In this document: piece by piece, positions 57,110-61,207 of the stretch
How the letters are laid out: the number at the start of each line of letters is the position of its first letter
How positions within the stretch are numbered: position 1 is the stretch's first letter
Source of the DNA: Halobacterium rubrum
GTDB taxonomy: Archaea; Halobacteriota; Halobacteria; Halobacteriales; Halobacteriaceae
DNA length: 64,000 bases
Direction of reading: 5' to 3'
Assembly: GCF_021729015.1 (NCBI RefSeq)
Contig: NZ_JAJQQZ010000001.1
Location: 682,001-746,000, forward strand
Notes under the pieces: generated by a model
The model's database searches: none
What the model saw: the letters and a program-made list of their open reading frames with translations, nothing else
What the model was told of the DNA's origin: nothing
Position numbers and translations under genes: made by a program

Positions 57110-58363
57110 CTACTGCTGGGTCGCAGTCGCCAGCTCCTCGACCTCGAAGTTCTCCTGCAGGAGGACGTCCTGCTGGTCCGCGACGACGGCCTCGTCTTTG
57201 ATGAGCTGCTTGTACTTCGACTGCGGCGCGAGGTTCCCGATGAGCACGCCGCCGATGAGCTGGCCGTCCTTGAACGTCAGGCGGCGCCACTCGTTGCCGC
57301 CGTAGTGGCGCTCGCAGGACTCGTCGCCCATCGTCGGGAAGCCAAACGAGAGGAACGGGAAGTCGAAGTGCGTGATGGAGTACGACGACACCCAGCGGAA
57401 CGGCTCCACGTCCACGTCGTGGCCGCTGTCGGCGAGCATCGTCTTCCCGGCGAGCGCGCCCTGCTGTTTCGCGGAGCCCCACGAGCCGTTCTGCGCGCGC
57501 TCGTCGAGGATGGTGTCCCAGTACTGGGTGATGTCACCGGCCGCGTAGACGTCGTCGACGTCCGTCCGCATGTACTCGTCGACGTGCACGCCGTTCTCGA
57601 TGGTAACGTCCGTGTCCTGGAGGATTTCGACGTTGAAGTCGAGGCCGATGGCGACGCCGACGAAGTCCGACTCGTGGCGGTCGCCGTTGCCGTCGACGGT
57701 CGCGACGACCTCGCCGTCGTCGTTCGTCTCGAAACGGCCCGCGCCGGACTCGAAGACGGGCTCGACGCCCTTCTCGCGGAGCCCCTCGTGGATGATTTCG
57801 GCGCCCTCCTCGCTGAGCGCGTACCGCCACCAGCGGTTCCCGCGCATCAGGTACTTCGCGTCCACGTCCTGCCCGCCGCAGATGGCCGCCAGGTCGATGC
57901 CCAGCAGGCCCGCGCCGACGACGACGCCCGTGTCGGCTTCCTCGGCGTGCTCGCGGATGCCGCGCGCGTCCTCGAACGTCCAGAAGTGGTGGACGCCCTC
58001 CGCGTCCGAGTTCTCCACGGGGAGCTGGTTCGGCGTGCCGCCCGCCGCGACCAGCAGCTTGTCGTAGTCGATCTCGTCGCCCTCGTGGGTCTCGATGGTG
58101 TGCGCGTCGGGGTTGACGTCGGTGACGAGCGTGTTCAGCCGGATGTCGATGTCGCGCTCGTCGTACCAGTCCGGGTCGTGGATGCTGATGGGGGCCTCCG
58201 GGAGCTTGCCCTTCGCGAACTCCTTGATGAGAATGCGGTTGTACAGGGTCTCGCCCTCGTCGGTGACGACGGTGACGTCGGCCTCTGGCGCCTCCTCGTG
58301 GATGGCCTCGGCCGCGGAACTGCCCGCGATGCCGTCGCCGATTATCACGTACGACTCGCTCAT
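57110..58363 (-). CDS. FAD/NAD(P)-dependent pyridine nucleotide-disulfide oxidoreductase family protein
   Basis: The 417-aa flavoprotein opens YVIIGDGIAGSSAAEAIHEEAP (FAD Rossmann loop), has a second nucleotide loop GVVVGAGLLGIDLAAI (NAD(P)H), and DVYAAGDITQYWD as the second FAD motif. The redox-active Cys pair of dithiol reductases is absent, so it resembles rubredoxin/nitrite-reductase-type or ferredoxin reductases. An acceptor gene is not adjacent. It is divergent from the Q-rich/Hsp20 operon across a 344-nt spacer. Confidence 0.9.
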   Translation of the reverse strand: MSESYVIIGDGIAGSSAAEAIHEEAPEADVTVVTDEGETLYNRILIKEFAKGKLPEAPISIHDPDWYDERDIDIRLNTLVTDVNPDAHTIETHEGDEIDYDKLLVAAGGTPNQLPVENSDAEGVHHFWTFEDARGIREHAEEADTGVVVGAGLLGIDLAAICGGQDVDAKYLMRGNRWWRYALSEEGAEIIHEGLREKGVEPVFESGAGRFETNDDGEVVATVDGNGDRHESDFVGVAIGLDFNVEILQDTDVTIENGVHVDEYMRTDVDDVYAAGDITQYWDTILDERAQNGSWGSAKQQGALAGKTMLADSGHDVDVEPFRWVSSYSITHFDFPFLSFGFPTMGDESCERHYGGNEWRRLTFKDGQLIGGVLIGNLAPQSKYKQLIKDEAVVADQQDVLLQENFEVEELATATQQ

Positions 58364-58707
58364 ACTCGGGGGTCACGCCTTCAGGGTTGAAGTGGGTTGC
58401 TATCTCCTCGGCGCCCGGATTTCGGCAGGCTCGCGTCTTTGTAAACCGTTGTCTATGAGCACGACCTGGCGAGGTTAGTCGTGGTGAATCGTCTCGTGGC
58501 GGCTGCGAGTAGGGGGGTCTTGCACCTCGGTAGGGTCGGGCAGTCTCAGCCGGTCCACGAGCCAGTGGGATTCGACGGGGCGCCCGCGTACGCCGGTAAT
58601 CACGTGCTAGAAGCGCTGTCGTGGTTGAATTCGCCTGAACTATCGGCGCGCTTTATCACCAATCGCGTTGACGGTTCGACTGTCCCGCTGCCAGGGACGG
58701 AACACCA
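58364..58707. other. 344-nt intergenic region upstream of the Q-rich/Hsp20 operon
   Basis: No gene is supported here. Two TATA-like elements are visible: TTTGTAAAC at 58438-58446 and CTTTATC at 58651-58657. The nearer one would start a transcript about 30 nt before the Q-rich ATG at 58708. The farther one could drive an unseen RNA or an upstream start. No tRNA or hairpin terminator was found. The open frames across the spacer merely run on as shadows of the Q-rich gene. Confidence 0.5.
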
Positions 58708-59706
58708 ATGCAAGACCAGCCAAGCTTCCAGCAGCCGCAGCTATCGCGAGCCGAACAGTACACGGGACCGACCAGTCAGGTCGCGGGCAACCGGCAACCG
58801 CAGGCCGCCCAGCAGCACGGGCAGATCGCCCAGCAGCCCCAGCAGTTCGCCGGCGGACAGTCGCCACAGCAGTCCGGGATGGAGCCGCAGGCACAGCAGC
58901 CACAGTTCCAGGCCGGCCAACAGCAGCAGCCGCTGCAACAGCAGCCGCCGCAACAGCAGTTCCAGGGTAGCCAGCAGCCACCACAACAGGGCGCCAGCGG
59001 GCAGGTGCCATCGCAGGCCGCAGCCGGCCAGCAGCAGGCACCCCAGCAGGACCTGTCGAAGCGCCAGTTCCAGCAGGCCCAGCCGGAGGGCCAGCTCCAG
59101 GGGACGATCCAGCAGCCGGAGATCCGTCGCCAGGAGGCTGCAGGCCAGAACCAGATTGAACAGCAGCCGGCGTCTCCGGTCGGGCAGCAGCAGCAGCCGG
59201 CGTCTCCGGTCGGGCAGCAGCAGCAGCCGGCGTCTCCGGTCGGACAGAAGCAGCAGCCCCAGTCCCAGCCGCAGCAGCAGCAGCCCATCGGCTCCGGGAT
59301 GCCGTCGACTGGCGCCCCGCAGCAGCCGATGACGGAGGGAATCGGCAAGCAGGCCGGGATGCAGTCCCCACAGATTTCGTTCAGCTCCCCGTCCGAGCAG
59401 GGGCAGGCCGTCGGCGGCCAGCCCGGCCAGCAGACCACCGGACAGGAGCCGGTTCGGCAGTACGTCGAGACCGCCGACACGAAGCTGCTCGCGGACACGC
59501 TCGCGCGCCGGGTCGGGCTGACGAGCCAGCAGCTCGCGCAGGTCGTCCCGCAGCTCGACGTCGTGCTCCGGAGCCAGCAGCACGGCGCCGGACAGTCCAC
59601 GATCTCCCAGCAGCCGACCGGCAAGCAGCCGATCGGCCAGCAGGCCGCGATGGGCGTCCAACAGCCGGTGACCCAGCCGCAGTCCCCCGTGACTCAGCAG
59701 CGATGA
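58708..59706 (+). CDS. Glutamine-rich low-complexity (prion-like) protein
   Basis: The 332-aa protein is dominated by Gln, with Pro, Gly, Ser and Ala, in QQ, QQQP and QPQQ runs over most of its length; Asp/Glu are rare, opposite to the usual haloarchaeal acid bias. A 10-residue unit QQPASPVGQQ is repeated three times in tandem. The one ordered-looking segment is at about residues 250-295 (YVETADTKLLADTLARRVGLTSQQLAQVVPQLDVVL), predicted helical. No signal or membrane helix. It overlaps the hsp20 gene by ATGA. I know no named family. Disordered, condensate- or aggregate-forming behaviour is inferred. Confidence 0.8.
   Translation: MQDQPSFQQPQLSRAEQYTGPTSQVAGNRQPQAAQQHGQIAQQPQQFAGGQSPQQSGMEPQAQQPQFQAGQQQQPLQQQPPQQQFQGSQQPPQQGASGQVPSQAAAGQQQAPQQDLSKRQFQQAQPEGQLQGTIQQPEIRRQEAAGQNQIEQQPASPVGQQQQPASPVGQQQQPASPVGQKQQPQSQPQQQQPIGSGMPSTGAPQQPMTEGIGKQAGMQSPQISFSSPSEQGQAVGGQPGQQTTGQEPVRQYVETADTKLLADTLARRVGLTSQQLAQVVPQLDVVLRSQQHGAGQSTISQQPTGKQPIGQQAAMGVQQPVTQPQSPVTQQR
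59161..59250 (+). repeat. Three tandem 30-bp units within the Q-rich gene
   Basis: Units at 59161-59190, 59191-59220 and 59221-59250 each begin cagcagccggcgtctccggt. The first two are identical; the third differs near its end (CGGACAGAAG for CGGGCAGCAG). Each codes for QQPASPVGQQ (the last ends GQK). The near identity points to recent expansion by slippage or unequal recombination. Confidence 0.92.
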
Positions 59707-60200
59707 GCTACGACCCACGAACTGACCCGGGCGTCCCGCGCGCGGCGGCCGCCTGGAACGCGACCGGACCGACGACTACCGGACCCGTAGCCCCCGCGAC
59801 GCCACAGCAGTCCGCGGGCGTCGGCGCCGGCCAGCAGCAGGCCGAGGCCGTCGAGTACCAGCCGCCGGCCGCGGCGACGCCGAACATCGACGTCGTCGAG
59901 TCCGACCAGGAGATCGTCGTGTTGCTCGACGCACCCGGGTTCGAGGAGGACCACATCACCGTCCACGCGGACGCGAACAACCTCTACGTCACCGCCGACC
60001 GGTCGGACGACCCGGCGGTCGGCTCGGAGAGCGGCGAGCGCACGCTCCTTCACGAGCGACCGGTGCGCATCGAGCGCGCCATCACGCTGCCCGGGCACAT
60101 CGACCCCGAGCAGGCCACCGCCGAACACGAGAACGGCGTCTGCCGCATCACCGTGCCGAAAGACGAGGAAGAGCGCCGACACGAGATCGCCTTCCAGTAG
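59703..60200 (+). CDS. Small heat-shock protein, Hsp20/alpha-crystallin family
   Basis: The 165-aa chaperone has a long N-terminal arm (about 58 residues) that is Ala/Pro/Gln-rich (TPQQSAGVGAGQQQAEAVEYQPP), then the alpha-crystallin domain (NIDVVESDQEIVVLLDAPGFEEDHITVHADANNLYVTADR ... LPGHIDPEQATAEHENGVCRITVPK). The C-terminal I-x-I anchor motif of many Hsp20s is not obvious; the end reads RRHEIAFQ. The ATG overlaps the preceding Q-rich stop (ATGA). The Gln-rich arm shares composition with that neighbour, so direct interaction is plausible. Confidence 0.92.
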   Translation: MSYDPRTDPGVPRAAAAWNATGPTTTGPVAPATPQQSAGVGAGQQQAEAVEYQPPAAATPNIDVVESDQEIVVLLDAPGFEEDHITVHADANNLYVTADRSDDPAVGSESGERTLLHERPVRIERAITLPGHIDPEQATAEHENGVCRITVPKDEEERRHEIAFQ

Positions 60201-60343: not shown

Positions 60344-60541
60344 ATGTCACAGGATTACCGACTCGTCTCAGAACTCGTCCGTCCCGGCGACAGCCTCCCC
60401 TGCCCCGAGGACGCCGACCCAGTCGTGCAACCCACCGGCCACCCGGGACTGGTACGAATCACCTACCTGAAAGAAGTGACGCGCGTGCCGTTCGCCGCGA
60501 GCCACGACGAGGACGACGCCGACCTCGCGTACGTCGAGTAA
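60344..60541 (+). CDS. Small conserved-looking protein, unknown
   Basis: This 65-aa acidic protein (MSQDYRLVSELVRPG ... ITYLKEVTRVPFAASHDEDDADLAYVE) has no cysteine pair, signal or helix. Codon composition is normal for the chromosome. The open frame starts 5 nt after the strong hairpin, 143 nt downstream of hsp20. Function unknown; an independent transcript is likely given the hairpin. Confidence 0.6.
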   Translation: MSQDYRLVSELVRPGDSLPCPEDADPVVQPTGHPGLVRITYLKEVTRVPFAASHDEDDADLAYVE

Positions 60542-60634
60542 CCACCTCCTACGCGCAGCCAGCGGCGCGCTCGGCGACGAGCAGCGAGTGTCGCTGTCGG
60601 GACGTTCTTGAGGGCAGGTCTCCTACGGGCAGGC

Positions 60635-61207
60635 ATGAAACTCCGCCAGAACGTCCGGCACTTCGCGTCGAAGAAGGCCCTGGAGGTCCCGGGCCTGCGG
60701 GACGTGGTCAACGACAAGCTCGTCGACCTCCACACGAGCATCTTCCTCGACAAGGCGCCCGAGGAGCGCCGCGAGGAGCGCCGCGACCACCTCGACGGCT
60801 TCTTCGACGCGACGATGGACATGTACCTGACCGCTCTGCAGGCGGGCTACCCGGAGGCGGAGGCCCGAGAGATGACGCACATCGTCGCCAACTTCGATTT
60901 CTACAACCACGGCTGGGCGGCGATGATGGAGTTCCCCGCGGACGAACTCGGCGAGCACTACGAGCGGTACGCGGCGTTCTTCGACGAGCACGGCGTCAGC
61001 ATCGACGACCCGCTCGGCGAGTTCCGGCCGGCCGACGGTATCCCCGACGCGCCGGCGACCCCCGAGAAGCTCGAGGACGCCGAGTTCGAGAACGCCGCCG
61101 CCGGCTACGAGGACGACGTCTACGTCGAGACCGAGGACGGCGTCCAGCAGGGCGGCGCCGACGAGCCGGACGACGTCGACCCCGAGGACAGCCCGTTCGC
61201 CGGCTAG
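60635..61207 (+). CDS. Conserved haloarchaeal protein, DUF6149-like
   Basis: The 190-aa protein is helical in its first two thirds (KLRQNVRHFASKKALEVPGLRDVVNDKLVDLHTSIFLDKAPEERREERRDHLDGFFDATMDMYLTALQAG), with IVANFDFYNHGWAAMMEFPADELGEHYERY as the most conserved-looking part, then a long acidic tail. I recall this as haloarchaeal DUF6149; function unknown. The ATG at 60635 is preferred over the longer frame. Its stop overlaps that of the convergent hydrolase gene. Confidence 0.78.
   Translation: MKLRQNVRHFASKKALEVPGLRDVVNDKLVDLHTSIFLDKAPEERREERRDHLDGFFDATMDMYLTALQAGYPEAEAREMTHIVANFDFYNHGWAAMMEFPADELGEHYERYAAFFDEHGVSIDDPLGEFRPADGIPDAPATPEKLEDAEFENAAAGYEDDVYVETEDGVQQGGADEPDDVDPEDSPFAG

Follow-up and report, generated by a model that had tools for sequence, protein, structure and literature searches.

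A distinct clade of haloarchaeal Hsp20 chaperones is paired with Gln-rich low-complexity proteins

We found that the members of one clade of haloarchaeal Hsp20 chaperones are always accompanied by a Gln-rich chain. All 28 clade members have such a partner, 24 as a coupled gene upstream and 4 as the chaperone's own fused arm, versus none of 54 other Hsp20 open reading frames (ORFs), many of which come from genomes that also supplied clade members. The Gln-rich chain and the Hsp20 are almost certainly associated as a dedicated functional unit. We suggest that they could form a stress-response module, in which a GVC-type Hsp20 and a Gln-rich disordered partner are made from one message, and to which most carriers add a small third protein. 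An earlier note on this DNA had proposed a matched, dedicated pair, and the one-sided pairing, the four fusions, and a Gln-enriched Hsp20 arm bear this out. The third gene, a shared promoter element, and a change from GVL to GVC in the Hsp20 signature go beyond that note.

The Gln-rich gene and its surroundings

The window (the whole stretch of Halobacterium rubrum DNA that we analyzed, 64,000 nucleotides) contains these features:

57110..58363, minus strand: left flank, FAD/NAD-dependent oxidoreductase (Pyr_redox_2), outside the module
58636..58656, plus strand: TGAAC-N11-TTTAT, a TATA-type box with an upstream TGAAC, ahead of the Gln-rich gene
58708..59706, plus strand: gene 1, Gln-rich low-complexity protein of 332 amino acids, ATG start, predicted disordered (AlphaFold mean pLDDT 46)
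59464..59568, plus strand: conserved C-terminal helical segment of gene 1, residues 253-287, VETADTKLLADTLARRVGLTSQQLAQVVPQLDVVL, aligned in six species
59703..59706, plus strand: ATGA overlap, in which hsp20 starts before gene 1 has ended
59703..60200, plus strand: gene 2, Hsp20 of a distinct haloarchaeal clade, 165 amino acids (PF00011)
60141..60143, plus strand: codon for Cys147, which changes the canonical GVL of the A-x-x-x-n-G-V-L motif to GVC
60344..60541, plus strand: gene 3, small protein of 65 amino acids, beta-rich model, no known family (AlphaFold mean pLDDT 77)
60608..61207, plus strand: right flank, DUF6149 protein, outside the module

The window sequence confirms that a Gln-rich ORF of 332 codons shares four bases (ATGA) with hsp20. 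Its product is 32% Gln, 12% Pro, and 10% Gly, with 4.5% Lys+Arg and no Cys. Low-complexity regions in halobacterial proteins are typically acidic (34% Asp or Glu; PMC6821194), and with just 4.5% Asp+Glu this protein does break the acidic haloarchaeal rule, as had been claimed. Searches of Pfam and NCBIfam gave nothing above the cut-offs for the protein, only sub-threshold matches. The window has no other ORF of at least 100 amino acids with at least 18% Gln, and in six frames of 575 kb of haloarchaeal DNA, the only such ORFs were partners or fused arms. (We measured Gln-richness by six-frame scans of DNA in place of the exact DNA pattern for QQxQQxQQ, which was uninformative as a genome-wide measure: in most genomes it matched unrelated genes, and it missed the target.) A short run encoding QQAQQAQQ lies in another gene (G000:C1:38059), and a matching pattern is found in most genomes of the family.

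Within gene 1, a 30-bp unit encoding PASPVGQQQQ occurs in three near-identical tandem copies (about 59167-59256), which is probably a sign of recent repeat growth. Both CAG and CAA are used for Gln, and stretches of a single codon are 2-4 long, which argues against passive CAG expansion.

In other species, where the sequence has diverged, the Gln-rich ORF is still intact at the equivalent place. An AlphaFold model built from a three-sequence alignment is disordered (mean pLDDT 46), with helices only within residues 256-291 (256-269, 273-279, and 281-291, at low to moderate confidence). The partners from Halobacterium have in common a start motif and the 35-residue C-terminal segment. Differences in the C-terminal helical segment are biased towards the third position (119/108/208), and the helix appears to be under constraint at the level of the protein. 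The segment is absent from two carriers (G013 and G018), so it is not universal.

Every member of the Hsp20 clade has a Gln-rich partner

Our census covered 391 haloarchaeal genomes, and the clade was present in 28 of them, from five families. The earlier note would have given up the idea if the pair were confined to one strain; the search for homologues and their co-occurrence finds it kept in all 28 of these genomes. A profile built only from nine Hsp20s of the Halobacterium family (A4) picked up 19 more strong members, spread over four other families, each with a Gln-rich ORF just upstream or a Gln-rich fused arm. With a wider profile (A5), the 391 genomes gave 28 matches of at least 144 bits, then a single match at 119 bits (G019), and then ordinary Hsp20s at 108 bits or less; this gap is partly by construction, as most members are inside A5, and A4 was made without those members. 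A model of the alpha-crystallin domain (ACD) only gave 115-138 bits for the 28 clade members.

The highest Gln fraction in any 80 amino acids was 0.29-0.71 beside or in the 28 clade Hsp20s, as compared to at most 0.10 for the 54 controls. The pairing (28/28 vs. 0/54) has P = 1.5e-22 by Fisher's exact test, which is overstated because species are not independent, though five families are spanned. All 24 split loci have a spacing between the two genes of -7 to +17 nt, with the -4 overlap (ATGA) of the window found in 10 of them. In the other four genomes (G220, G295, G309, and G232), the Gln-rich chain is the Hsp20's own N-terminal arm:

L204, L209, L211, and L214: fused loci, with the chain N-terminal to the Hsp20 domain

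Obligate association, fusion, coupling, and joint absence together give good support to the view that the chain and the Hsp20 work together. We found no description of a Gln-rich partner of a haloarchaeal Hsp20 in the literature searched, which was that outside of subscription papers.

A variant clade of Hsp20

The Hsp20 in the window matches PF00011 with 49.4 bits (cut-off 20.8) and thus has an alpha-crystallin domain, and the nearest solved structures are those of archaeal and other small heat shock proteins (sHSPs). It lies below the cut-offs of both NCBIfam equivalog models (NF041799, 74.7 vs. 100 bits; NF041800, 51.7 vs. 140 bits). In a tree of the ACD (106 columns, quick search, with the GVC residue masked), the clade members and G019 form one group (SH-aLRT 97).

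In place of the A-x-x-x-n-G-V-L signature, the Hsp20 in the window reads AEHENGVC. As read by eye from the tails, the 28 clade members have GVC (25), GMC (1), or GVV (2, both of them fused forms). Among the 54 control Hsp20s, nearly all have GVL, one has GAL, and the diverged L006 has DGTL; none has a cysteine at this site. Because the alpha-crystallin domain itself is present, GVC, GMC, or GVV marks a variant clade and not a different fold family. The C-terminal motif, which is I-x-I/V in the sHSP family, reads I-x-F (IAF or IGF) in the Halobacterium group and I-x-V or I-x-I in other members. The arms of the clade's Hsp20s are enriched in Gln (13% vs. 4%); the Gln-rich segment that had been noticed in the arm of the window's Hsp20 (AGQQQAEAV) is indeed there.

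G019 encodes a basal member of the clade that keeps the canonical GVL:

L058:2593-3789 / L216:6593-7789: Hsp20 of G019 with an Arg/Glu/Pro-rich arm

This fused arm of about 297 residues is rich in Arg, Glu, and Pro (EPRREPRARRAPRYEA-type repeats) and is not Gln-rich. In a phylum-wide sample of 325 genomes, we found the clade nowhere outside the haloarchaea.

A promoter element and a third gene

The TGAAC-N11-TTTAT element ahead of gene 1 occurs once in the window, where 0.08 occurrences are expected, and a fuller form (TGAACNRTCN7TTTAT) occurs just once in the whole 3.07-Mb host genome. Its spacing is constant in all 8 upstream regions that we compared from the Halobacterium family and also in G319, G044, and G247; a few of these have one or two changes in TGAAC. 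The element was absent at control Hsp20 loci and was not seen in other families, such as that of Halobaculum. For the Halobacterium family, most of the split loci that we compared have this one conserved promoter element ahead of the module.

Downstream, gene 3 encodes a protein with no Pfam match, no PDB-sequence match, and no significant fold match. Its homologues are 60-80 amino acids long, and strong ones are present in 17 of the 391 genomes, every one of which carries the pair; 11 of the 28 carriers lack gene 3. (In the same search, G007 had one extra copy, and there were two weak matches elsewhere.) In 16 loci gene 3 lies downstream of the Hsp20, mostly by about 130-330 nt (its start in G148 is uncertain), and in G220 it is on the opposite strand. 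The extra copy in G007 (G007:C9:5787-5969, L265) is an orphan, with no Gln-rich or Hsp20 gene seen within a few kb.

Presence and absence of the module

Where the module is missing, the oxidoreductase gene is directly divergent from the DUF6149 gene. Five Halobacterium species without the clade Hsp20 have these flanks just 134-182 nt apart, as compared to about 2.25 kb in the window; all three genes are absent and the site is otherwise intact. Judging from these empty sites, the module is present or absent as a unit in Halobacterium. In G247, which belongs to a different family, the module lies between the same oxidoreductase and DUF6149 genes, and in G148, G319, G070, G075, and G220 the two flanking genes are close together and the module is elsewhere. 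With just 7% of the haloarchaea in our sample as carriers, the module does not count as a core stress system.

The clade Hsp20 is also found on plasmids of Halobaculum, where the pair is on plasmid-sized secondary replicons (L206, L208, L212, L213, and L215). There it lies 0.5-2 kb from a conserved ATPase gene, a candidate Orc1/Cdc6-like gene by eye. We found no relative in viral contigs, and an explanation by a virus or by mobile defence received no support.

The partners share composition

Across species, the partner ORFs are 225-454 codons long. The proteins are 22-52% Gln, rich in Pro and Gly, very hydrophilic (GRAVY -0.8 to -2.4), nearly free of Cys, and carry a net charge of at most about 5 per 100 residues. 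In G013 and G018, a Gly/His/Gln chain stands in for the Pro/Gln chain at the partner site. Because of this replacement, we consider that composition, and not sequence, is what is conserved.

A different C-terminal domain, about 100 residues long and apparently helical (LQELERTLEQANVYALENG...ERKLILRxSPFAESF), closes the Gln-rich proteins of Halobaculum and two other genera and has no confident Pfam match; for the helical C-terminal domain, Pfam and NCBIfam gave sub-threshold matches only.

L205:4612-5877, L206-L208, L210, L212, L213, and L215: loci with the C-terminal domain of about 100 residues

The protein in the window had been called prion-like. This is apt for a Gln-rich, low-complexity protein, and it fails if taken to mean a prion or an amyloid: Asn is about 1%, Pro is high, and its PAPA-type score of -0.07 is below the threshold of 0.05, so classical prion behaviour is not predicted by the kind of check that the earlier note had proposed. 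Most of the 23 partners also score below 0.05 (we set the parameters of this score without the original program). A prion or amyloid nature of the Gln-rich protein is thus not supported. Since aromatic residues are few in the partners (1-6%) and Pro is high, phase separation is not an obvious prediction either.

Proposed mechanism and alternatives

sHSPs usually bear their own arm, and how low-complexity chains act in the deposits that chaperones form is known for the most part from yeast and animals. Our best reading, which we hold tentatively, is that the pair may be a split sequestrase resembling yeast Hsp42, with a sequestrase or condensate-type role in which binding and condensation are presumed. 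On this reading, the low-complexity arm of the chaperone would be encoded apart from it, as the Gln-rich chain. The chain would bind to the Hsp20, plausibly via its short C-terminal helical segment, and the pair would collect proteins that are unfolding in deposits or condensates of a reversible kind, with coupled translation keeping chain and chaperone in ratio. We infer the docking by this helix, as well as roles for GVC and for the third protein. In Hsp42, an N-terminal extension with a prion-like and a disordered region drives the deposition of misfolded proteins (PMC13287201); this precedent, and the finding of the chain in cis or in trans, make a split sequestrase the leading mechanism. 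A fuller version is possible, if more doubtful: a dedicated archaeal condensation system, in which a two-part sHSP sequestrase would have a separate, co-translated Gln-rich arm, the third protein would tune assembly, and the change from GVL to GVC would fit the chaperone's groove to the partner or provide a thiol switch for this binding.

We rank a solubilising shield after the sequestrase, then a client, and then a regulatory leader. As a hydrophilin or desiccation shield, a neutral, very hydrophilic, soluble and disordered protein (similar to LEA proteins) would hold water around the chaperone and its clients and keep them apart when salt is extreme or changes, and would prevent assembly instead of promoting it. 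The low GRAVY values (-0.8 to -2.4), net charge near zero, richness in Pro and Gly, absence of Cys from most partners, disordered model, and mostly sub-threshold PAPA scores fit this, and the protein in the window has the Gly content (10%; above 6%) and high hydrophilicity (GRAVY -1.15) of a hydrophilin. However, Gly is below 6% in the partners in L061, L201, L206, and L215, so the usual definition of a hydrophilin does not hold throughout. Furthermore, a general shield would not need one-to-one pairing with, or fusion to, one clade of Hsp20, and the conserved helical segments suggest specific binding. We consider the shield rather unlikely.

A second alternative takes up the client role that the earlier note inferred: the Hsp20 would serve as the private chaperone of the Gln-rich protein, an aggregation-prone cargo or a structural protein. 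The genes are coupled with the Gln-rich gene first, and human HSPB7 and HSPB8 suppress polyQ aggregation (PMC9133787). But the fused forms place the chain in the chaperone itself, which suggests that it is part of the machinery and weakens the case for a client. Also, no known functional domain is present in the chain, its amyloid propensity is low, and its replacement in G013 and G018 by an unrelated chain of similar character would be odd for a protein with a job of its own. A client is thus improbable. The chain occurs both fused to the Hsp20 and apart from it, and for this reason a chaperone arm or scaffold describes it better than cargo does.

It is less probable still that gene 1 is a regulatory leader, whose protein is a by-product, and that translation of a long Gln-rich ORF sets the amount of Hsp20 (for instance, by sensing the supply of Gln-tRNA or ribosomes slowed by stress). 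This would account for the Gln-rich ORF being directly upstream and coupled in every split locus, and for the common promoter element; but the chain is kept in the fused forms, which have no upstream ORF, its C-terminal helix is constrained at the protein level, and 225-454 codons far exceeds known leader peptides. Finally, neutral low-complexity expansion beside an ordinary hsp20 gene, retained by chance, could explain the three 30-bp PASPVGQQQQ units and the fast divergence of the Gln-rich sequence, but it is already contradicted by the pairing of 28/28 vs. 0/54, by the presence or absence of the whole module, and by similar compositions from different repeat units in five families, and we give it almost no weight.

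Comparison to known systems

Yeast Hsp42 also has an alpha-crystallin domain that works with a long low-complexity chain, and its order of parts recurs in the four haloarchaeal genomes where the chain is fused to the N-terminal side of the Hsp20. However, an Hsp42-type protein has the sHSP domain and a long disordered extension in one chain, and in the window, as in 23 other loci, the haloarchaeal chain is separate and co-translated. Asn is scarce, Pro is high, and many carriers have a third small protein. The haloarchaeal system is known from its sequence, and the homology with Hsp42 that we considered is that of the ACD.

Canonical archaeal Hsp20/Hsp14 proteins share the alpha-crystallin fold family and the C-terminal I-x-hydrophobic tail with our clade. 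In contrast, the clade Hsp20 groups separately, has GVC for GVL and a Gln-rich arm, and has an obligate Gln-rich partner. The partner resembles hydrophilins and LEA proteins in being very hydrophilic, disordered, neutral, and of low complexity; unlike them, it is tied one-to-one to an sHSP clade, and Gln instead of Gly is dominant. In Archaeoglobus fulgidus, HSR1 is also encoded directly upstream of hsp20 in a single operon (PMC9133787), but HSR1 is a DNA-binding repressor and the Gln-rich protein has no recognizable DNA-binding domain.

Here, the chaperone and the low-complexity chain are separate by nature, in a cell whose set of chaperones is simplified, and protein sequestration could become testable in archaea.

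A possible link to heat in Halobacterium salinarum

Halobacterium salinarum is a genetic model, and we found that it carries the pair. The parts could be deleted, swapped between species, or fused, so that a role of Gln-rich chains in driving protein sequestration would be directly testable in this organism. The clade Hsp20 of H. salinarum has a computed mass of 18.54 kDa and pI of 4.23. A proteomic spot termed sHsp-2 (18.53 kDa, predicted pI 4.07), which was identified by its gel mass and pI, was reported to increase more than 2-fold at 49 C (PMC1475562). The pI values differ (4.23 vs. 4.07), but the clade member is the only Hsp20 in the H. salinarum genome near 18.53 kDa, and its mass is suggestive of it being the heat-induced sHsp-2.
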